Part shown: in pieces, positions 12,821 to 64,000 of the stretch | Layout of the letters: each line of letters opens with the position of its first letter | Position numbering within the stretch: the stretch's first letter is position 1 | Assembly (NCBI GenBank): GCA_001515945.1 | Contig: LOER01000036.1 | Span: forward strand, 62,001-126,000 | Source of the DNA: Desulfitibacter sp. BRH_c19 | GTDB taxonomy: Bacteria; Bacillota; DSM-16504; Desulfitibacterales; Desulfitibacteraceae | Reading direction: 5' to 3' | DNA: 64,000 nucleotides | Notes under the pieces: model-generated | What the model saw: the letters and a program-made list of their open reading frames with translations, nothing else | Database searches by the model: none | Told to the model about the DNA's origin: nothing | Translations under genes and position numbers: made by a program

Positions 12821-12869
12821 TTATAGGGTACATGTTAAAATAAAGATAAATTAAATACTAATATTAAAT

Positions 12870-54367: not shown

Positions 54368-54571
54368 ATGTCAGCGTTTGTCGTAGAAAAATTGTGCCAA
54401 GGTTGCCAGAGATGTATCAATGCTTGCCCAAATTGTGCAATTAGAATGCTTGCGGGCTTGGCAACTGTTGATCCCGAGAACTGTACAGAGTGTGAAGAGT
54501 GTATAGAAGTTTGTATGCATGGGGCTATCACATTTCGTAGAGATATAGGAGTTGAACAAAAAAATGGCTAA
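54368..54571 (+). CDS. Small two-cluster ferredoxin
   Basis: A 67-residue protein with two 4Fe-4S motifs, CQGCQRCINACP and CTECEECIEVCMHG, spaced as in bacterial 2[4Fe-4S] ferredoxins (the second lacks the usual final proline). ATG 54368 is chosen over the upstream GTG because the protein then starts at the normal distance from the first cysteine. It overlaps the next gene by eight bases. Confidence 0.85.
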   Translation: MSAFVVEKLCQGCQRCINACPNCAIRMLAGLATVDPENCTECEECIEVCMHGAITFRRDIGVEQKNG

Positions 54572-54752
54572 AAAAGAATTAGAACAATTAGAGAAGGAAT
54601 TGCAGGAAGTGGAAAATCAATTGAAGGATTTAAAGGCTCGATGGCCTGCCCATTCTTTAAAACCTGTGATGTTTGCTCAGTTAGAGGATTTAGAAGAAGA
54701 AAGAGACAGGCTAAAGCGGTTAGTAAAATCTATTAAACTTTACCATAAGTAA
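54564..54752 (+). CDS. Small coiled-coil protein ending in att sequence
   Basis: A 62-residue, highly charged helical protein (two helices around RWPAHSLKPVMFAQLEDLEEE) coupled to the ferredoxin gene. AGGAG lies 12 bases upstream of the ATG at 54564. Its last codons TAC CAT AAG TAA and the following CGG are the core of repeat D, identical to the end of rlmH, so the C-terminal YHK may have been supplied by recombination. Function unknown; perhaps a partner of the ferredoxin. Confidence 0.7.
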   Translation: MAKKELEQLEKELQEVENQLKDLKARWPAHSLKPVMFAQLEDLEEERDRLKRLVKSIKLYHK

Positions 54753-54842: not shown

Positions 54843-55919
54843 GTGGACATAAAAGTTGTTGATAGAAGAGCAATTGGTGAATATTTATCTTTATATAAAG
54901 GGGTATATAAAGATAATATCTATTTTAGAGATAGTATGAGCATTGTTTTAAAAGGTATATTGACAGGAAAATCCTTGATATGTAAAAGCAGCATAGTAAA
55001 ACCGATTATAGTGATGGAATCGGGGAAGGTAGTAGCTGCTTGTATTTTTGCCATAGTTGATCGGATGAAAGATACCTTACAGCTCACCTTTTTTGAAGCT
55101 TTATCAAATCAGGAGAATGCGGTAGAGAAAATGATCGATTATGGAAGGAGGCTTGCACGGGAACAGGGTATTAATAAGATTTTAGTAGGATTAAATTTTC
55201 ATGTTAATTATGGGCTGGGGTTATTGGCCGATAATTATAATTCTTTGCAAGGCTTTGGTACACAATATAATCCTCCCTATTATATTGACTATTTTAAAAA
55301 ATATGCTACAGAAGAAATCAAACTTGTTAACTATATCGGTAAAATGGATAAATTTGATAGTATTCTTAACCATGAACTGTTAAACAGAATTGAGGATAAA
55401 TATAGTGTTAGAAAGGCAGATTTTAGAAATATAGAAAAAGATGTGCAAATTTATACAGATCTAAATAATCAAGCCTTTAGTAATCATAAATTCTATTATG
55501 GAAGAAGAGTAGAAGAAGATGTCGAGCTATTTAAAGATTTAAGGCTGCTACTAAAAGAAGAAAATCTACTAATATTAGAATATGAAGGAACTCCAATAGG
55601 ATTTATGCTATGGTATCCTGATTTTAATCAACTTATTAAGCCAGGTGAGCCCATAGGGATTAAAACTGTAATTAAGAATAAATTCTTTTCTCATAAAATA
55701 AAAACATTTAAGATTGTAGAATTAGGAGTACTGCCTGAATTTCAGAAAAAGGGAGGCGTACTCGCACTATTTAATAAATGCAGACATTTGGTTAAAGACC
55801 GATACGAATTTTGCGAATCAGGATGGGTACTAGAGGACAATCTTGATTCCAAAGGTTTTGGCCTTCGATGGGCGGATAAAGAGTACAAGCATTATAAAGT
55901 ATTTCTTATTAACTTATGA
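54843..55919 (+). CDS. GNAT-type acyltransferase-like protein
   Basis: A 358-residue protein with the shape of a two-domain GNAT enzyme. The C-terminal domain has the acyl-CoA-binding motif VELGVLPEFQKKGGVLALF (about residues 297-315). The N-terminal half has a partial GNAT fold (VMESGKVVAACIFAIVDRM). It starts the coupled seven-gene cluster with radical SAM enzymes; its stop overlaps the next start (ATGA). It may attach an acyl group to the pathway's scaffold. GTG at 54843 follows GAGGTGAAA. Confidence 0.75.
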   Translation: MDIKVVDRRAIGEYLSLYKGVYKDNIYFRDSMSIVLKGILTGKSLICKSSIVKPIIVMESGKVVAACIFAIVDRMKDTLQLTFFEALSNQENAVEKMIDYGRRLAREQGINKILVGLNFHVNYGLGLLADNYNSLQGFGTQYNPPYYIDYFKKYATEEIKLVNYIGKMDKFDSILNHELLNRIEDKYSVRKADFRNIEKDVQIYTDLNNQAFSNHKFYYGRRVEEDVELFKDLRLLLKEENLLILEYEGTPIGFMLWYPDFNQLIKPGEPIGIKTVIKNKFFSHKIKTFKIVELGVLPEFQKKGGVLALFNKCRHLVKDRYEFCESGWVLEDNLDSKGFGLRWADKEYKHYKVFLINL

Positions 55920-56971
55920 AAGGCAATGGATATATGTTTAAAGTTTATCATAATGCGAGTAAATTACCCGATATATGGGATGAGATTGTTGCTGAAAACA
56001 GAGATGGAGAAAATATTTTTTTAAAAAAGCAAATCTTAGAAAAACTAGAGAAATTCAACCCTTGTGGTCAATTGTATCATCTTAATCTTGGAGAAAGGGT
56101 TGTTTTTGTTTCTTATCAGCTTAAGCTGAATATTTTAACCTTTGCTAAGTATCCTTGTATAAATGTCCCAACTAATATTATCGGGTTGCCAATCTCAGTT
56201 GCAAAAACAGGGTATTCAATTTGCAAAGAAGATAATACAGATGCTATGGTAGAATATATTAAGTGTCTTAAGGGGTTTTATATCATTCTCAATTCGGATG
56301 ATATTTTTAATCTTGCTCAAGGCAATACTCTCTCCACCTGTAAAATGGATATTTACTGGAATTCCTTCGAGCAATATCTGTTGAGTATGAGAAGCCACTA
56401 TAGTTACAGAATTAGGAAAGCCTTGAGAAGATTTTCTAATATAAAGGTGGAAGAGCTAGAGGATAACAATTTATTTGATCAGGCGATGTATCATCTATAT
56501 GAAGATGTTTATGAGCACTCAAGCGAAAAACTGGAAAAACAGCCTATTGATTTTTTTAAAAAGTTTCCCGCGAAAATTATAAAATTTTCGCTTTGTGGAG
56601 ATATAATTGCTTTCGTTCAGCTAGTGGAAGATAAGGATGAGTTGATATTTTTATTCGGTGGCTTTAAGTATAGCATGAATAAAAAATATGATTTATATAT
56701 AAATATGCTTTTGCAAATCATTAGCTACGGTCTTAATAAGAAAGGTATCAAACGGATCGATTTCGGGCAGACGGCAGAGGAGACAAAGCTCAAACTAGGG
56801 GCTATACAGCATCCTAAATCTTTATATATTCATCATAGCAACCCCATAATAAATGGGATTTTAAGCAAGGTTGTCCATAAGTTTTCCTATAAACCATATA
56901 TGATTGAGCATAATGTATTTAACGATTTTGAGGGGGATAGAAATGAAGGTTCTACTAGTGAAATGCCATAA
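55916..56971 (+). CDS. FemAB/GNAT-like acyltransferase protein
   Basis: A 351-residue protein of the BioF2/FemAB-like GNAT group: SYRIRKALRRF, then a long helical linker and a second half-domain with IAFVQLVEDKDELIFLFGGF and KGIKRIDFGQTAEETKLKLGA, which resembles the acyl-CoA N-acyltransferase half of these proteins. Substrate unknown. ATG 55916 overlaps the previous stop; ATG 55934 after AAAGG is an alternative. The 3' end overlaps the following radical SAM gene by 29 bases. Confidence 0.72.
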   Translation: MKGNGYMFKVYHNASKLPDIWDEIVAENRDGENIFLKKQILEKLEKFNPCGQLYHLNLGERVVFVSYQLKLNILTFAKYPCINVPTNIIGLPISVAKTGYSICKEDNTDAMVEYIKCLKGFYIILNSDDIFNLAQGNTLSTCKMDIYWNSFEQYLLSMRSHYSYRIRKALRRFSNIKVEELEDNNLFDQAMYHLYEDVYEHSSEKLEKQPIDFFKKFPAKIIKFSLCGDIIAFVQLVEDKDELIFLFGGFKYSMNKKYDLYINMLLQIISYGLNKKGIKRIDFGQTAEETKLKLGAIQHPKSLYIHHSNPIINGILSKVVHKFSYKPYMIEHNVFNDFEGDRNEGSTSEMP

Positions 56972-58265
56972 AAAGACTCTTTTCTCTATCTTCGAGCCAA
57001 TTGTAACGGAACCCTTAGAATTGGAATATCTCTCTGGACTCTTAACAAAGATGGACATCCATCATAGAATATTTAATTCGCTGATGGAGGATAGCACTTT
57101 TGAAAAGGTAATGGAAGAATATCATCCAGATGTCTTAGTGTTAACTGGATATATAACTGCAGTGGAAACCATGATTAGTTTCTCCCAATATGCAAAGAGC
57201 CTGGACAGGAATATGAAAGTAATCGTTGGCGGTGTTCATGCGGAAATAAATTACGAGGATTTTTTTGTTGAGACAATAGATTTTATTGTCCATTCTGATC
57301 CCATTCATACATTCGAGAAGCTGATAAACAATCATTTTTGCAAAGTAGAAGCTGAGAGTATTCAAGGGATAGCGTTTTATGATGGAAAGAAGTGGCAGGT
57401 TAACAGTAAGAGTCTAACTAAACTTGAGGATCTTCCATTTCCTAACCGAACTTATTTTAAAAAGTATAAGCATAAGACCAAGTATCTGCAGTATAGCCCG
57501 ATAGCTATTATAAAAACGGCATTATCTTGTCCATTTCAATGTAATTTTTGTTATTGTAGGTTACTGAATATGGGAACTTATTCTAATAGAACAATTCGAT
57601 CTGTAGTAGAGGAAATTAAAACTATCGATGCGGAGTATATCTGGATTGTGGATGATACATTTCTTTTGGATAGGGAAAGAATAGTAGATTTTATCCATGA
57701 AACAAAAAACCATAAACTTCATAAGAAATTTATTGCCTATTCAAGGGTAGATTTTGTGGCTAAAAATGAGGATATTATAAAGAAATTAGCAGAAATCGGT
57801 TTTGTCGAACTAATTATAGGGATGGAAGCCATAGAGGATCAAAAGCTGGAAATGCTTAATAAACAAAGCTCCTCAGATGAAAATATCCGGGCAGTAGAAA
57901 TTCTTCGAAAATATGGTATTCGATTAACGGCATTGTTCATTGTGGGAATAGATTTTACTTTCACAGATTTTCGGAGACTTAGAAAATGGATTCGAACAAT
58001 TGGTTTATGCTGTTATGCTGTTTCAATATTCACACCACTTAAGGGGACAGATCTCTATAAGGCTTATAAAGATAAAATTATTAATAATAAGTACGCCAGC
58101 TATGATTTTTTACATCTAACAATTAAGCCGACCAAAATACCTGCCGTTATTTTCTGTTTTCTTTTTTATCTGCTTTATGTTGAGCAATTCTTTAGGAGTA
58201 GCTATATTAGGGGTGCTATGATGAAAACGTTAAGAAGCATATTTGTTACTGGAGGAAAGCCATGA
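56943..58265 (+). CDS. Cobalamin-binding-type radical SAM enzyme 1
   Basis: A 440-residue protein: an N-terminal B12-binding-like Rossmann domain (residues about 1-130; VKVLLV-type start, VIVGGVHAEI) without a DxHxxG motif, then a radical SAM barrel. The 4Fe-4S ligands are Cys196, Cys200 and Cys203 in CPFQCNFCYC, followed by VDDTFL and GMEAIEDQKLEML. Related enzymes methylate or cyclise unactivated carbons. ATG 56943 after GAGGGGG is preferred over an upstream in-frame start. Coupled to the methyltransferase downstream (ATGA). Confidence 0.88.
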   Translation: MKVLLVKCHKKTLFSIFEPIVTEPLELEYLSGLLTKMDIHHRIFNSLMEDSTFEKVMEEYHPDVLVLTGYITAVETMISFSQYAKSLDRNMKVIVGGVHAEINYEDFFVETIDFIVHSDPIHTFEKLINNHFCKVEAESIQGIAFYDGKKWQVNSKSLTKLEDLPFPNRTYFKKYKHKTKYLQYSPIAIIKTALSCPFQCNFCYCRLLNMGTYSNRTIRSVVEEIKTIDAEYIWIVDDTFLLDRERIVDFIHETKNHKLHKKFIAYSRVDFVAKNEDIIKKLAEIGFVELIIGMEAIEDQKLEMLNKQSSSDENIRAVEILRKYGIRLTALFIVGIDFTFTDFRRLRKWIRTIGLCCYAVSIFTPLKGTDLYKAYKDKIINNKYASYDFLHLTIKPTKIPAVIFCFLFYLLYVEQFFRSSYIRGAMMKTLRSIFVTGGKP

Positions 58266-58912
58266 GTAGGCAGGAAATTTGGGATTTTTGGGCAAAGGCT
58301 TATGAAAGTCTATGGGTACAGAAGTACTCTTTAGAACCTACTAGGGGGAAAATTTTGCAGTACTTAAGAGAATATTTAGATCCAGATAAAGCCTATCGAA
58401 TTCTCGACATTGGTTGTGGTACTGGACAGCTCCTTAGAGAAATAAGGGTAGAGTTTTCAGGATACAAGCTTGAACTACTAGGTATAGATTATTCTAAGCA
58501 AATGGTTAAGGTGGCAGAGGAGCATGGTGGAGGAATTGATTACCAACAAATGAATGTTAGCCAGATAGGTAATATATTAGGCAAGTTTGATATTATAATA
58601 TGTACCCATTCATTTCCATATTATGAGGACCAAGCAAAGGCCATTGTCCAAATTAATGGTCTTCTGGATGTGGGAGGATACTTACTTTTAGCACAAGCTT
58701 CGCAAAACAATCTATATGATGGCATTGCCATGTTTTTTGTAAAGCTAACTACTGGTAAGGCAAAATACCTAAGTGTCAAGGAAGTTCAGCATATAACGGA
58801 AGAATGCTTTCAATGTGAAGATTTGATTAAGATTAAAGAAAGCCCTTATATGCCGTCTATCTATTTTTTCATATTAGCGAAAAGAGAATTTAAAGGAGAC
58901 TATAAAGGATGA
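58262..58912 (+). CDS. Class I SAM-dependent methyltransferase
   Basis: A 216-residue methyltransferase. It starts EIWDFWAKAYESLW, a type 11 methyltransferase entry, and motif I is ILDIGCGTGQLL (residues about 45-56), followed by LLGIDYSKQMVKVAEEHG. It should methylate a small molecule or a lipid head rather than DNA. It overlaps both neighbouring genes by four bases, so it acts in the same pathway as the radical SAM enzymes. Confidence 0.88.
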   Translation: MSRQEIWDFWAKAYESLWVQKYSLEPTRGKILQYLREYLDPDKAYRILDIGCGTGQLLREIRVEFSGYKLELLGIDYSKQMVKVAEEHGGGIDYQQMNVSQIGNILGKFDIIICTHSFPYYEDQAKAIVQINGLLDVGGYLLLAQASQNNLYDGIAMFFVKLTTGKAKYLSVKEVQHITEECFQCEDLIKIKESPYMPSIYFFILAKREFKGDYKG

Positions 58913-60309
58913 ATGTTCTGCTGATTAGACCTAAACCTGACAAAGAAACTATTGGATTACAACATGTTATGGTCTGTGAACCCCTTGAACTTGAATATTT
59001 AGCTGCTAATATGGAACAAACTGATGCAAATATAGAAATTTTAGATATGATCTTAGAGAAAAAGCCTCTAGAATACTTCATGGAAAAATATAAGCCGGAT
59101 GTTGTAGGGATGAGTGGCTATATTACCCATGTGAATGTTATCAAGGATTATGCATGTAGAATTAAGAGGGTGATTCCTCATTGCAGGATTGTTGTTGGCG
59201 GTGTCTATGCTGAAGTGGTGCCTGAGGATTTTATCAGTATCCATATAGACTTTATTGTTGAGGCCAATGGGCCAATAACCTTTAATGCCGTACTAAAACA
59301 TCTAGATAAGAAAGAGCAAAGCATTGAAAAAAACATAGAGAAAAGCATTACAGATATAGATATCCAGGGGACGTATAAACCAGGGAGAAGGAGCTTAAAG
59401 GATACGTCTTTTCTCTATCTTTTCCCAGATCGCCAAAAGGTTGAACGCTATAGGCATAAGTATTATTATATGTTTCATAATCCATGTGCTTTAGTAAAAA
59501 CAGCTTATGGTTGTCCCTATAATTGCAGTTTTTGCTTTTGCAAAGAGATTACTGATGGCAAGTACTTTACTAGGACCATTGATTCGGTAATTGAAGAACT
59601 AAAGGAAATACCCGAACCAGAAATCTATATCGTTGATGATGACTTTCTTTTTTCTAGAGAACGAATTTTAGAGTTTTGCCACAAACTAGCTGAAAATAAA
59701 ATCAATAAGAAATTTCTTGTTTATGGGAGAACAGATTTCGTTAGCAAGAATGAAGATGTGATAAAAACTTTTCGCGATCATGGCTTGCGTGCTGTTATTG
59801 TTGGGCTGGAATCATTTAAAAATGAAGATTTAGATAAATACAATAAAATGACAAGTATCTATGAAAATGAAGCGGCTATTAGCATCTTAAAAAAATATGA
59901 TATTGAGGTATATGGAACTTTAATACTAGGAATGGACTTTTCAAAAGAAGATTTTGTCCATCTATATCAATGGTTAAAAAAAATTGACATAACCTTTGTT
60001 AATTTACAACCACTTACCCCACTATATGGGACAGGAATTTTTCAAGAGTACGAAAAGGATTTAGTTATAGCTCGAGAAGAGTTTGAAAAATGGGATTTGG
60101 CCCATCTTGTACTAAAACCTCAGAAGATGAGTGTCCGCAGATATTATTTTGAAATGGTAAAGCTTTATTATAAAATAACCATGCGTCCTAAAAACATACT
60201 AAGACTTATTCGTAAATATGGATTATCTGAGGTATTGAAGTTGTCTATAGGTAGTAGTGCTGTGACTATCCAGTATATGCAAAAAATATTAAGAGGTAAA
60301 TCAAGATGA
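58909..60309 (+). CDS. Cobalamin-binding-type radical SAM enzyme 2
   Basis: A 466-residue relative of enzyme 1 with the same two domains. Residues 95-102 (IVVGGVYAE) belong to the B12-binding-like domain. The 4Fe-4S ligands are Cys202, Cys206 and Cys209 in CPYNCSFCFC, followed by VDDDFLF and VGLESFKNEDL. The C-terminal tail (MSVRRYYFEMVKLYY, then RLIRKYGLSEVLKL) is shared with enzyme 4, so the two probably arose by duplication. Overlaps on both sides. Confidence 0.88.
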   Translation: MNVLLIRPKPDKETIGLQHVMVCEPLELEYLAANMEQTDANIEILDMILEKKPLEYFMEKYKPDVVGMSGYITHVNVIKDYACRIKRVIPHCRIVVGGVYAEVVPEDFISIHIDFIVEANGPITFNAVLKHLDKKEQSIEKNIEKSITDIDIQGTYKPGRRSLKDTSFLYLFPDRQKVERYRHKYYYMFHNPCALVKTAYGCPYNCSFCFCKEITDGKYFTRTIDSVIEELKEIPEPEIYIVDDDFLFSRERILEFCHKLAENKINKKFLVYGRTDFVSKNEDVIKTFRDHGLRAVIVGLESFKNEDLDKYNKMTSIYENEAAISILKKYDIEVYGTLILGMDFSKEDFVHLYQWLKKIDITFVNLQPLTPLYGTGIFQEYEKDLVIAREEFEKWDLAHLVLKPQKMSVRRYYFEMVKLYYKITMRPKNILRLIRKYGLSEVLKLSIGSSAVTIQYMQKILRGKSR

Positions 60310-61622
60310 AAAAACTGCTCCTAATTCAATCGACTCCCTATGATTTAAATAGAAAACCCATAAAAAAGAAAAAGTTATATTTTGTTGGTTTAGCGCTGCC
60401 ACTTCTAGCTGCATTAACACCCCAAGATTGGCAAGTAGAAATCGTTTTAGAAACCATTGAAGATATTCCATTTGACACAGATGCTGATCTTATTGCTATC
60501 GGATCTATGGGCCATGCCATTATCCGTACAATTGATATTGCTGAAGAGTTTAAGAAAAGGGGTAAGACAGTAATCTTAGGAGGATATATGGTTAGCCTCA
60601 TGGCAGAGGAAGCAGGTAAATACTGTGATAGTGTAGTTATTGGAGATGCTGAGAATGTTTGGGGTAGGGTAATTGAAGATTATCAAAAAGGTGAATTAAA
60701 AAGCTCCTATAAAGAAGAATTGACTTGCCTTAAGACTCCACTTCCCAGATTTGACTTGATTCTTAAAAAGAATATTGGTGATTTCCTGCCCATACAGGCA
60801 GGTAGAGGATGTCCCAATTCTTGTAGCTTCTGCTCTGTGTACTGCTTATACAAAAACAAGTATCTAAAAAGAGAGATTGCTGATGTTATTCGAGATATTA
60901 CACAGATAAAGGAACTGGGATTTAGTAAATTTTTATTATTAGATGATAATATTATTGCTGATAGGATGTATCTATTAGAGCTATGTGGAGAAATTAAGAA
61001 GCTGAACATGCAGTGGGCATCACAGTGCTCTATAAAAATTGGTGATGATAAAGAATTATTAGAAATTGTTGCTGATAGTGGTTGCCTAGCGTTAAGTTTT
61101 GGCCTGGAGAGTATTTCAGTAGAAAGTCTAAAATACATGGATAAATCATGGGCAAAGCCCAAAGAGTACCCCGAACGCATTAAGAATATACAAGCAGCAG
61201 GGATTGATGTATCTACAGAAATGGTGGTGGGTGCCGATGGAGACACCCTCCAATCTATTCAGGATACAGCTAAATTTATTAGTGATAATAAAATTGTTAT
61301 CCCGAGATTTTATATCCTTACTCCTATACCCGGAACTAAATATTATGAGGATTTAAGAGCCCATCATCGAATATATAAAGAGGATATCTATTCCTATAAT
61401 GGAAGTGAGGCAGTTCATATTCCTAAACATATGACTCCTGAGGAATTAACAAAGGCATATTGGGATTTATACAATGAAGTATTTTCTATTTCATCAATTG
61501 CAAAGCGTACACTATTTAGAAAAGATTTTTTTACAAAAATGGACAGATATATATTTTATTTCATGATTAATATATATTACAGATATCAGATTAAGCGAAA
61601 GATAACACCGAATATCATATAG
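60306..61622 (+). CDS. Radical SAM enzyme 3, HpnR/GrsA-like
   Basis: A 438-residue protein. N-terminal B12-binding-like domain: LLAALTPQDWQVEIVLE, VILGGYMVSLMAEEA and DSVVIGDAENVW. The cluster-binding cysteines are 169, 173 and 176 in GCPNSCSFCSVYC. FGLESISVESLKYMDK and the LTPIPGTKYYEDL segment recall hopanoid and tetraether-lipid modifying enzymes (HpnR, HpnJ, GrsA), which act on lipid hydrocarbon chains. It differs from the other three in its C-terminus. Likely role: carbon-centre modification of the cluster's product. Confidence 0.85.
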   Translation: MKKLLLIQSTPYDLNRKPIKKKKLYFVGLALPLLAALTPQDWQVEIVLETIEDIPFDTDADLIAIGSMGHAIIRTIDIAEEFKKRGKTVILGGYMVSLMAEEAGKYCDSVVIGDAENVWGRVIEDYQKGELKSSYKEELTCLKTPLPRFDLILKKNIGDFLPIQAGRGCPNSCSFCSVYCLYKNKYLKREIADVIRDITQIKELGFSKFLLLDDNIIADRMYLLELCGEIKKLNMQWASQCSIKIGDDKELLEIVADSGCLALSFGLESISVESLKYMDKSWAKPKEYPERIKNIQAAGIDVSTEMVVGADGDTLQSIQDTAKFISDNKIVIPRFYILTPIPGTKYYEDLRAHHRIYKEDIYSYNGSEAVHIPKHMTPEELTKAYWDLYNEVFSISSIAKRTLFRKDFFTKMDRYIFYFMINIYYRYQIKRKITPNII

Positions 61623-61755
61623 AGTGAAACTTCTATCAGTAGGGGGAACTTCATATCCTACTGAAGATTAGTTGAACTAATCGGGGTGTTAGCGTCCGTT
61701 ATCCACCACTTTAGATATTGAAGTGGGGCCCTTACGAACGATCGCACCGGGATAA
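61622..61755 (+). ncRNA. IS200/IS605 (TnpB) right-end or guide-RNA-like remnant, copy 2
   Basis: A CAGTAGG/CCTACTG stem and a TTAGTT/AACTAA stem lead into GTTAG, CGTCCGT/ACGAACG (61693 and 61734, one mismatch) around TTATC and a second stem CCACTT/AAGTGG (61706 and 61721), closing near CCGGGATAA. It shares the skeleton of copy 1 at 49001. It separates radical SAM genes 3 and 4 with no tnpB gene nearby, so it is a relic insertion or an adopted RNA element. Confidence 0.45.
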
Positions 61756-61768
61756 TGAGGAGAAGTGA

Positions 61769-63130
61769 ATGAAAGTACTTTTAGTAAGACCTCCAAGAAT
61801 TAAACAAGCAATTACACTAGGAGAATTCATGTATAGTGAGCCTATTGGTCTAGAAATTATCTACGCCATGCTAGAACATAGGCATCAAGTGGAAATTTTA
61901 GACCTAATGTCCGATAAAGTGAAAATTGAGGATAAGCTAAAAGAATATAAACCCCAAGTAGTGGGCATCACCACACTATGCATAGATGTTCCAATAGTCA
62001 ATGCTATAACAGAAGAAGTTAAGAAGTATGACCCAGCCATAGTGACACTCATAGGAGGAACCCAGGCTTTTTTGAATCCTCAGGCATTTTTCATTAGTTC
62101 TGTTGATCATGTCATGAAATATACTACTACTAAAAACATAACAGAGCTGTTTTATTATCTTGAAAACTGGGCTAATGTACCACTTATTGACGGTATCTTT
62201 AGTCGTGGAAATAATTTCGAAGCTACCAATTCTCAAGGAATTAACGAATACATTCATCCTAACAGGACAGCAACCGCCAAATATAGAAATTACTATTCCT
62301 ACTTTGGATATAGACCTGCTGCTATTATGGCAACTGCTCAAGGATGCTCGAAAACATGTCGCTTTTGCTTAAGGTGGAAAATTGAAGGACATAGAGAAAA
62401 GTATTTTCCTATGGATTTTGTGATGGAAGAAATTCGCAGTATTAAAGAAGGAACTATTATGGTTTTTGATAATGATTTTCTACATAATGCAGATAGGATC
62501 AACACACTCTGTGATTTTCTTGAAAGCGAGAATATTAAGAAGAAGTTTATCTGTTATGCTAGTGTGCACAGTATCCTAAAAAATAAAAATATGGTAAGAA
62601 GATTCAAAAGCTTAGGCTTAAAGGCAGTATTGGTCGGATATGAATCTTTTAATGATGAAGAAATGCAGAGCTATCAGAAGAAATCAACAATTGAGGATAA
62701 CTTTGAGGCAAGTAAATTCATGAAATCAATTGGTCTTGATGTATGGGCCTCCTTTATGTTTCATCCCGATTGGACTGGCGCAGATTTCAAAGCATTTAGA
62801 AGATATATACAACTCTTAAGTCCTGAGCTTAGTTCTCTTTCACCACTTACACCTTTTCCTAATTTGCCACTATATAAAGAATATAAAGATAGAGTGCTAG
62901 TAAAGAAGGAGGACTACGAAAAATGGAGCTTCGGACAAGTTACAATTATACCTTCCAACATGAGCTTAAGAAGATATTATTTTGAAATTTTAAAAACCAA
63001 CCTATATGTCAATATACCATTAAAGAATGTTGCTTATATGGTGAGAAAATTCGGGTTTTTAACAGTATTTAGGCTCTTTAAGGGATCATCTAACTTATTT
63101 ATGAGGTATGTTAAGATAATGATTGAATAA
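61769..63130 (+). CDS. Cobalamin-binding-type radical SAM enzyme 4
   Basis: A 453-residue protein. B12-binding-like domain residues about 1-130 (VEILDLMSD, LIGGTQAFLNP). The 4Fe-4S ligands are Cys193, Cys197 and Cys200 in GCSKTCRFCLRW; FDNDFLH and VGYESFNDEEM follow. The C-terminal end (MSLRRYYFEILKTNLY, then VRKFGFLTVFRLFKGSS) closely parallels enzyme 2. It has its own GAGGAGA ribosome site, because an RNA-like insertion separates it from gene 3. It completes the cluster. Confidence 0.88.
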   Translation: MKVLLVRPPRIKQAITLGEFMYSEPIGLEIIYAMLEHRHQVEILDLMSDKVKIEDKLKEYKPQVVGITTLCIDVPIVNAITEEVKKYDPAIVTLIGGTQAFLNPQAFFISSVDHVMKYTTTKNITELFYYLENWANVPLIDGIFSRGNNFEATNSQGINEYIHPNRTATAKYRNYYSYFGYRPAAIMATAQGCSKTCRFCLRWKIEGHREKYFPMDFVMEEIRSIKEGTIMVFDNDFLHNADRINTLCDFLESENIKKKFICYASVHSILKNKNMVRRFKSLGLKAVLVGYESFNDEEMQSYQKKSTIEDNFEASKFMKSIGLDVWASFMFHPDWTGADFKAFRRYIQLLSPELSSLSPLTPFPNLPLYKEYKDRVLVKKEDYEKWSFGQVTIIPSNMSLRRYYFEILKTNLYVNIPLKNVAYMVRKFGFLTVFRLFKGSSNLFMRYVKIMIE

Positions 63131-63175: not shown

Positions 63176-64000
63176 ATGAATATTGATAAAGAATTTAAAA
63201 TATTACAACCAAAATATTATAGTAGGTTTCAGTGTGACCCAATCAAATGTCATGAGACCTGTTGTGAACGATGGAAGATAATCGTGGATAAAAGTACTTT
63301 TGAGAAATATTTCCAGAGTGAAAATGCGACCATTAAAGAGATTGTAAAAACAGGACTTTCTATAAATGAAACATCTATCAATGACGATGACTTTGCCATC
63401 ATCAATCTAAATAACGAAATGGTGTGTCCGTTTTTAAATCAGAATAATCTTTGCGAAATATTTATCAACATGGGAGAGAGCAGTTTGTCAAAAACATGCA
63501 AAAATTACCCTCGAACAATCATCTTAGTAAACGATGTGATGGAACGTGGATTAGAAATGTCTTGTTCGGTTGCTGCTGAACGGGCTTTGCTAGATGAGAA
63601 TGGTATAGAATTCGAGCACGTTTTGGATACTGTAAAGTTGAATGACATTTATGTAGTTTCACCTAGTATTGAAGACTTGAAGCAAATAGAAATCGTCAAA
63701 GAAATCAGAACAACGGTTATTGACCTCTTGCAAACTCGAACAATTGAGTTAAGTGACCGAGTAGCACTTGTAGGTTATTTTTTGAATCAAGTCATAGGTG
63801 ACATTGATTTTTCAGATCTCCATTACGAAGAAGCACTATTCAGAATAAAAGAGGCAAAACTTCTCATTAACTTGCAAAACAGCCGTCAGTTTCATCATTT
63901 AAATACAATACTTTCAATGAAGTTTAAAGAAGGCGACAGTATCAGTTTTTTTTCGAAGCGATACATAGAATGTTTAATGCAAGTCTTAGATGTCTTCGCA
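63176..64000 (+). CDS. fliB: FliB-like protein lysine-N-methylase, 3' end cut by the window
   Basis: The first 275 residues of a FliB-family protein, running off the window end. It starts with a Cys-rich motif, YSRFQCDPIKCHETCCERWK, which with MVCPFLNQNNLCEIF and SKTCKNYPR makes the Cys clusters typical of flagellin lysine methylases and their CxxCxxCC relatives. FliB methylates surface lysines of flagellin; other family members lie far from flagellar genes, as here. ATG 63176 follows AAGGAGA. Confidence 0.8.
   Translation, partial: MNIDKEFKILQPKYYSRFQCDPIKCHETCCERWKIIVDKSTFEKYFQSENATIKEIVKTGLSINETSINDDDFAIINLNNEMVCPFLNQNNLCEIFINMGESSLSKTCKNYPRTIILVNDVMERGLEMSCSVAAERALLDENGIEFEHVLDTVKLNDIYVVSPSIEDLKQIEIVKEIRTTVIDLLQTRTIELSDRVALVGYFLNQVIGDIDFSDLHYEEALFRIKEAKLLINLQNSRQFHHLNTILSMKFKEGDSISFFSKRYIECLMQVLDVFA

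Follow-up and report, generated by a model that had tools for sequence, protein, structure and literature searches.

We analyzed a 64,000-nucleotide stretch of Desulfitibacter sp. BRH_c19 (contig LOER01000036.1, positions 62,001 to 126,000; hereafter the window, with positions counted from its first letter), in which a seven-gene cluster on the plus strand (54843 to 63130) encodes two acyltransferases of the GNAT fold (GNAT1 and GNAT2), a methyltransferase (MT), and four radical S-adenosylmethionine (SAM) enzymes of predicted cobalamin (B12)-dependent type (rS1 to rS4). The cluster is almost certainly a real conserved operon, and we consider the chances about even that it specifies an uncharacterized compact pathway that makes, without any assembly line, a small amine, acylated or aminoacylated, with a carbon skeleton altered by B12 radical enzymes. 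An equally balanced judgment applies to the broader proposal that the product represents a new natural-product or lipid class widespread among anaerobes, built by GNAT enzymes without a nonribosomal peptide synthetase (NRPS), polyketide synthase (PKS), or ribosomal precursor, and then altered by an expanding B12 radical SAM family, related to HpnR, that acts on two to six unactivated positions. Four co-encoded enzymes of this kind without scaffold-building machinery make for an unusual cluster; B12 radical SAM enzymes carry out C-H methylations that are hard for chemistry, and few have known substrates. The combination of a conserved core pair with variable extra copies amounts to a natural experiment in the division of work on one scaffold, and the existence of cultured carriers makes the product question testable now.

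Open reading frame (ORF) calling bore out the coordinates, strand, gene order, and serial overlaps of 4 to 29 bases given in a first-pass annotation made from the sequence alone. The seven ORFs have plausible start codons and ribosome-binding sites and overlap, in gene order, by 4, 29, 4, 4, and 4 bases, the sole open junction being a 146-bp gap between rS3 and rS4. When 399 genomes of the host phylum were sampled for rS2, six besides the cluster's own genome encoded a protein of 48 to 75% identity, and all six had MT, rS1, rS3, and the two GNATs in a matching cluster; the cluster was not found in the two same-genus genomes searched. An rS2 alignment used to scan GTDB retrieved 114 relatives, from which 80 loci were kept. 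Across the 55 untruncated clusters (window included), where rS2 is present by construction as the query, GNAT1, GNAT2, and rS1 were each found in 52, rS3 in 54, MT in 39, and rS4 in 34, and exactly four radical SAM genes were present in 39 (range, two to six). The first-pass annotation had called for such a cluster-level search and would have been refuted by a set that occurred in no other genome or by genes each belonging to separate known pathways; the set recurs in about 80 genomes, which excludes a chance grouping, and its genes travel together.

Whole or in part, the gene set occurs in about 80 species, mostly anaerobic, from seven phyla and mainly Clostridia, with protein identities of about 30 to 80% across genomes and with the set and its order kept in most of the 80 loci plus the window. 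The carriers comprise 70 Bacillota, 5 Thermodesulfobacteriota, and 1 each of Calditrichota, Fibrobacterota, Kiritimatiellota, Lentisphaerota, and Melainabacteria. The non-Bacillota sequences branch from within Clostridia in the tree, a pattern that suggests horizontal transfer of the gene set between phyla, with the caution that metagenome contigs may be misbinned. Cultured carriers belong to Geosporobacter, Anaerovirgula, Alkaliphilus, Sedimentibacter, Acidaminobacter, Acetivibrio, and Acetoanaerobium; rumen Lachnospiraceae and Desulfopila are further carriers. One full cluster was found in a plasmid collection, in Acetoanaerobium noterae, and an HpnR-like match in Streptantibioticus from the same collection proved unrelated. 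No description of the gene set was found in the open literature (subscription journals fell mostly outside the scope of the search), which is weak evidence for novelty.

Nothing at the cluster resembles an assembly line: NRPS and PKS genes are missing there, and no precursor-peptide family was found among 2661 small ORFs (18 to 90 amino acids) around the clusters, the sole operon-linked small protein among them being an acyl carrier protein (ACP) in one lineage. The earlier view of an uncharacterized biosynthetic operon without a peptide precursor, NRPS, or PKS is thus supported, and a cluster for a ribosomally synthesized and posttranslationally modified peptide was rejected because no conserved precursor-peptide ORF lies beside the enzymes.

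All four radical SAM proteins score far above the Pfam cutoff for Radical_SAM (52.6 to 68.2 bits; rS1, 68.2; rS2, 60.7), and no aligned orthologue lacks the CxxxCxxC motif (91/91, 82/82, 70/70, and 43/43 for rS1 to rS4). By this [4Fe-4S] motif and domain, rS1 to rS4 are predicted to belong to the class 1 cobalamin-dependent radical SAM enzymes. A clear predicted N-terminal B12-binding Rossmann domain (PF02310; cutoff, 32.1 bits) is found in rS1 (36.5 bits), rS2 (58.2 bits), and rS4 (44.4 bits), without the His-on motif DxHxxG, which occurs in 0 of 286 rS1 to rS4 sequences. The first-pass description of four B12-type enzymes therefore holds for the radical SAM domain of all four and for the B12 domain of three, whereas that of rS3, at 27.7 bits, is doubtful.

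Assignment to known families also departs from the first-pass annotation, which had likened the third enzyme to HpnR, the hopanoid C-3 methylase (TIGR04367). That model is the top NCBIfam hit for rS1 (56943 to 58265; 143.8 bits), rS2 (58909 to 60309; 183.4 bits), and rS4 (61769 to 63130; 164.7 bits), which it matches nearly full length and which share the N-terminal B12-binding plus radical SAM architecture of HpnR; rS3 (60306 to 61622), at 50.9 bits, scores least of the four. Across relatives, rS3 is the most highly conserved of the seven proteins (58 to 82% identity). Among curated models, it is closest to PhpK (101 bits), then to ApyD, BchE (75 bits), and HpnJ (74 bits), but it falls far below the cutoffs of PhpK (600), BchE (481), and HpnJ (578), and no phosphinate or bacteriochlorophyll genes lie near the cluster. 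The HpnR likeness brings with it the idea of hopanoid methylation analogous to that by HpnR, to which we assign a barely appreciable probability. All four scores are below the 650-bit cutoff (144 to 183 bits for the three HpnR-like enzymes), and here there are three paralogues in one operon and no hopanoid pathway: squalene-hopene cyclase gave no match in three of seven carrier genomes (G082, G014, and G368) and only weak, partial ones in the remaining four, including the window genome. Since G082 encodes all seven cluster proteins at 56 to 79% identity and lacks any cyclase match, the hopanoid route was rejected. A further B12-type radical SAM gene lies at G000:C33:35372-36902, adjoined by a short ORF with a weak match to the C terminus of squalene-hopene cyclase.

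The HpnR-like proteins fall into three clades (FastTree; support, 98 to 100), jointly apart from the single HpnR-like paralogues of other Clostridia; L088_rS2_15797 in this tree is a long-branch stray and not an orthologue. rS1 is the most diversified member, duplicated up to threefold (one to three copies per cluster), while rS2 and rS3 form the conserved pair. Because rS1, rS2, and rS4 represent three ancient clades and rS2 and rS4 share 31% identity, less than the 37% between rS1 and rS2, enzymes 2 and 4 are not a recent pair, and the proposal that they are duplicates acting in series is not supported. We take the loop under the cobalt to be the one that resembles known MetH-type sequence. 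At this putative position, Tyr71 is found in 99% of rS2 orthologues (with His74 in 98%), rS1 mostly has Tyr, rS4 has Leu or Cys, and rS3 has an invariant MGH. In known class 1 enzymes, the residue under the cobalt is on the loop after strand 3 (PMC13331322). That this residue appears to differ among rS1 to rS4 argues for different chemistry and hints that the four enzymes do not share one reaction.

The two GNAT proteins would carry the transfer steps. GNAT2 (55916 to 56971; 351 amino acids) matches PF13480 at 19.3 bits, slightly below the Pfam cutoff, and has no sequence-level match to any PDB chain, but its structural model (predicted local distance difference test [pLDDT] score, 93.2) finds as top PDB folds the aminoacyl-tRNA-dependent peptide synthases Sbb17 and Sba18 (streptothricin type), A-PGS, FemX, and MprF, with Foldseek E values of 1.6e-10 to 9wqx and 1e-8 to FemX. 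When profiles of GNAT2 and of FemX proteins from carrier genomes were compared (hhalign), the probability was 85.5% and the E value 5.7e-6 over residues 143 to 284. The model thus points to the double-GNAT fold of aminoacyl-tRNA transferases (FemX, MprF, Sbb17/Sba18, VlmA, DhpH, and PacB) with a FemX-like C-terminal domain, and GNAT2 likely works as a FemX-type transferase, although membership in the family is unproven; it has no fused membrane domain, and the alignment does not reach the catalytic lysine of FemX. Invariant across 72 GNAT2 sequences are K291, G295, and GQT284-286. Use of aminoacyl-tRNA by enzymes with the FemX/MprF/Sbb17-type fold, including service in natural-product pathways, has been reviewed (PMC12945691).

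GNAT1 (54843 to 55919; 358 amino acids), whose GTG start lies downstream of GAGGTG, matches PF00583 at 22.7 bits and has a degenerate coenzyme A (CoA)-type loop near residues 300 to 306. Its AlphaFold2 model (pLDDT, 94.7) is closest to tandem GNATs that use acetyl-CoA on amines, namely, a clostridial glucosamine N-acetyltransferase (5kgh/5kga) and clavulanate ORF14 (2wpw/2wpx). Together with the closeness of GNAT2 to the streptothrisamine peptide synthases, these folds lend themselves to a second explanation, that the cluster makes a water-soluble aminoacylated specialized metabolite: GNAT2 would load an amino acid from aminoacyl-tRNA onto a core consisting of an amino sugar or amino acid, as happens in streptothricin, dehydrophos, or pacidamycin biosynthesis. 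The sporadic, apparently horizontal distribution is also what specialized metabolites show. However, no dedicated exporter, resistance, or regulator family recurs beside most clusters, and the acyl ligase, ACP, FeeM-like, and phosphatidylserine decarboxylase genes recruited by relatives point to acyl chains. We regard this explanation as unlikely overall, and the same applies to its remaining parts, in which N-acetylation by GNAT1 would serve to tailor the compound or to protect the producer, and C-methylation or rearrangement of the core would fall to the radical SAM enzymes.

The FemX similarity of GNAT2 could also indicate modification of a protein or the cell wall, with the FemX-like and B12 radical SAM enzymes acting on peptidoglycan, flagellin, or another surface polymer. 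Directly after rS4 in the window lies a gene for FliB, the flagellin lysine-N-methylase (63176 to 64000; 178 bits against a cutoff of 85; 401 amino acids in full in L061). Yet this adjacency is seen in the window alone, for which reason FliB was rejected as a pathway member; it was not found in the same-genus genomes searched. As no conserved target protein accompanies the cluster and ordinary FemX proteins are encoded elsewhere in the window genome, we consider surface modification distinctly improbable.

The main ground for the acyl-amine proposal comes from genes that relatives have added to the cluster. In about 10 Lachnospiraceae clusters, an AMP-forming ligase and a discrete ACP lie directly upstream of GNAT1, and in L094, this pair is relocated beside rS1 and GNAT2; the ligase is closer to acyl-CoA ligases (172 bits) than to NRPS adenylation domains (90 bits). 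Four loci from Thermincola and relatives encode a FeeM-like N-acyl amino acid synthase and a protein of the phosphatidylserine decarboxylase family (155 bits), situated between rS3 and rS1 in three of the four. A Fibrobacteria locus has its own FeeM-like protein and a pyridoxal phosphate (PLP)-dependent decarboxylase of the diaminopimelate/ornithine type, after rS4. The extra small GNAT of L056 and L088 matches the FeeM Pfam family (33 to 43 bits), resembling the N-acyl amino acid synthases FeeM and OlsB, enzymes of a type that uses acyl-ACP (PMC11631085). Three lineages have recruited acyl-amide functions independently, and since each of the three additions provides activated acyl groups, acylation of amino acids, or an amine, they strengthen the first-pass suggestion of an acylated lipid or amine, which was a reasonable option. 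Both types of decarboxylase require a free alpha-amine; decarboxylation would therefore come before N-acylation, or the acyl group would sit on a side chain.

Several observations weigh against an acylated amine. Each accessory set is confined to one lineage, so that the additions represent three events, not dozens. Ligase, ACP, FeeM-like, and decarboxylase genes are all missing from the window cluster itself, and PF13444 has no match in the window genome, which, unlike the FeeM-carrying relatives, lacks a FeeM-like gene altogether; the acyl interpretation is thus carried over from relatives, and GNAT1 would have to do the acylation there. The best PDB folds of GNAT1 are acetyl, not long-chain, transferases. 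Catalytic Lys305 of FemX-Wv corresponds to the K in the FKKGF motif of FemX, and K291 of GNAT2 lies near that place but is unaligned, the hhalign match ending at residue 284. Finally, the rS2-rS3 pair occurs without GNATs nearby in three Desulfobulbaceae contigs (L099, L100, and L133; Candidatus Electrothrix, cable bacteria). In L133, rS2 and rS3 are parted by 3.4 kb of other genes.

Some relatives combine a FeeM-like synthase, a PLP decarboxylase, and a FemX-like GNAT in a manner reminiscent of the XrtA/PEP-CTERM acyl sets (acyl ligase, ACP, TIGR03694 acyltransferase, PLP decarboxylase, and FemAB-like protein), but the curated models score far below cutoff in these clusters. An exosortase link was rejected, as PF09721 matched nothing in 7 carrier genomes (a control genome was positive). 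To our knowledge, the exosortase acyl set includes no B12 radical SAM enzymes.

HpnR-like enzymes, the MprF and A-PGS folds found for GNAT2, the phosphatidylserine decarboxylase in four clusters, and the lack of a recurrent exporter are all features that modification of membrane lipids would share. The radical SAM enzymes would then methylate, cross-link, or cyclize the chains of bulk phospholipids or ether lipids, and the GNATs would modify head groups, as in MprF-like aminoacylation; Bacillota do produce methyl-branched membrane-spanning lipids (PMC13274423). A clear cluster in only about 6 of 399 phylum genomes, its lack in both same-genus genomes searched, and the missing MprF membrane domain of GNAT2 speak against such a role, and we think it rather improbable.

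For an acylated or aminoacylated amine, the pathway might proceed as follows. GNAT1 would acylate an amine with acyl-CoA or acyl-ACP as the donor, and GNAT2 would add an aminoacyl group from aminoacyl-tRNA. MT (58262 to 58912; 216 amino acids), a class I SAM-dependent methyltransferase that is optional among relatives (PF13847, 57.8 bits; BioC-like, at 69 bits against an NCBIfam cutoff of 185), may methylate a heteroatom or carboxylate. By likeness to HpnR-related enzymes, rS1, rS2, and rS4 would methylate, or in part cyclize, unactivated carbons of the scaffold, and rS3 could carry out radical chemistry of its own, in a step coupled with the rS2 reaction. In some lineages, the cluster would supply its own substrate through the ligase and ACP or through an N-acyl amino acid synthase and an amino-acid decarboxylase. 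Duplication or loss of rS1 and rS4 would diversify the product.

The gap between rS3 and rS4 holds what the first-pass annotation called an RNA-like insert (61623 to 61765, plus strand). Its predicted fold is more stable than that of any of 200 shuffles (z, -2.9), and it has no match in Rfam. It is a dispersed repeat that is missing at this place in most relatives; where the gene order is the same, most have about 9 to 16 bp between rS3 and rS4. The cluster's own genome has at least six further partial copies, and G003, a genome with the same gene order, has six (G000:C46:164371, C3:61195, C26:265229, C32:83512, and C16; G003:C20:167157 and others), and none in the other 39 relatives searched. 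Common to the copies are GTGAAACTTCWATCAGT, a hairpin of variable length, and TTAGTTGAAC...TTAGC.TCCGTTA; the stem varies between copies with pairing kept (T-A versus A-T beside ATCAGT/ACTGAT). This dispersed structured element probably has no part in the pathway; it may represent a small mobile element or a structured RNA.

Cobalamin riboswitch control of the cluster was rejected, with no such riboswitch in 14 cluster loci and the window's only one far off at 12853. Recent acquisition judged from GC content gave no signal (0.340 for both cluster and window). Just upstream of GNAT1 lie a small 2[4Fe-4S] ferredoxin-like ORF (54368 to 54571) and a 62-amino-acid coiled-coil-like ORF (54564 to 54752), neither of which recurs beside the cluster in other genomes; the ferredoxin-like protein might serve as an electron source for the radical enzymes. 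In the Peptostreptococcaceae loci L078 (6916 to 7737), L083, and L085, a membrane-anchored metallophosphoesterase-like protein is encoded between rS4 and rS1. In two other clusters (L084, 14116 to 16207; L090, 7305 to 9435), consecutive genes encode an ABC-type ATPase, a HypB/CobW-like GTPase, and a 4Fe-4S protein, which together may activate the B12 enzymes reductively at the expense of ATP.

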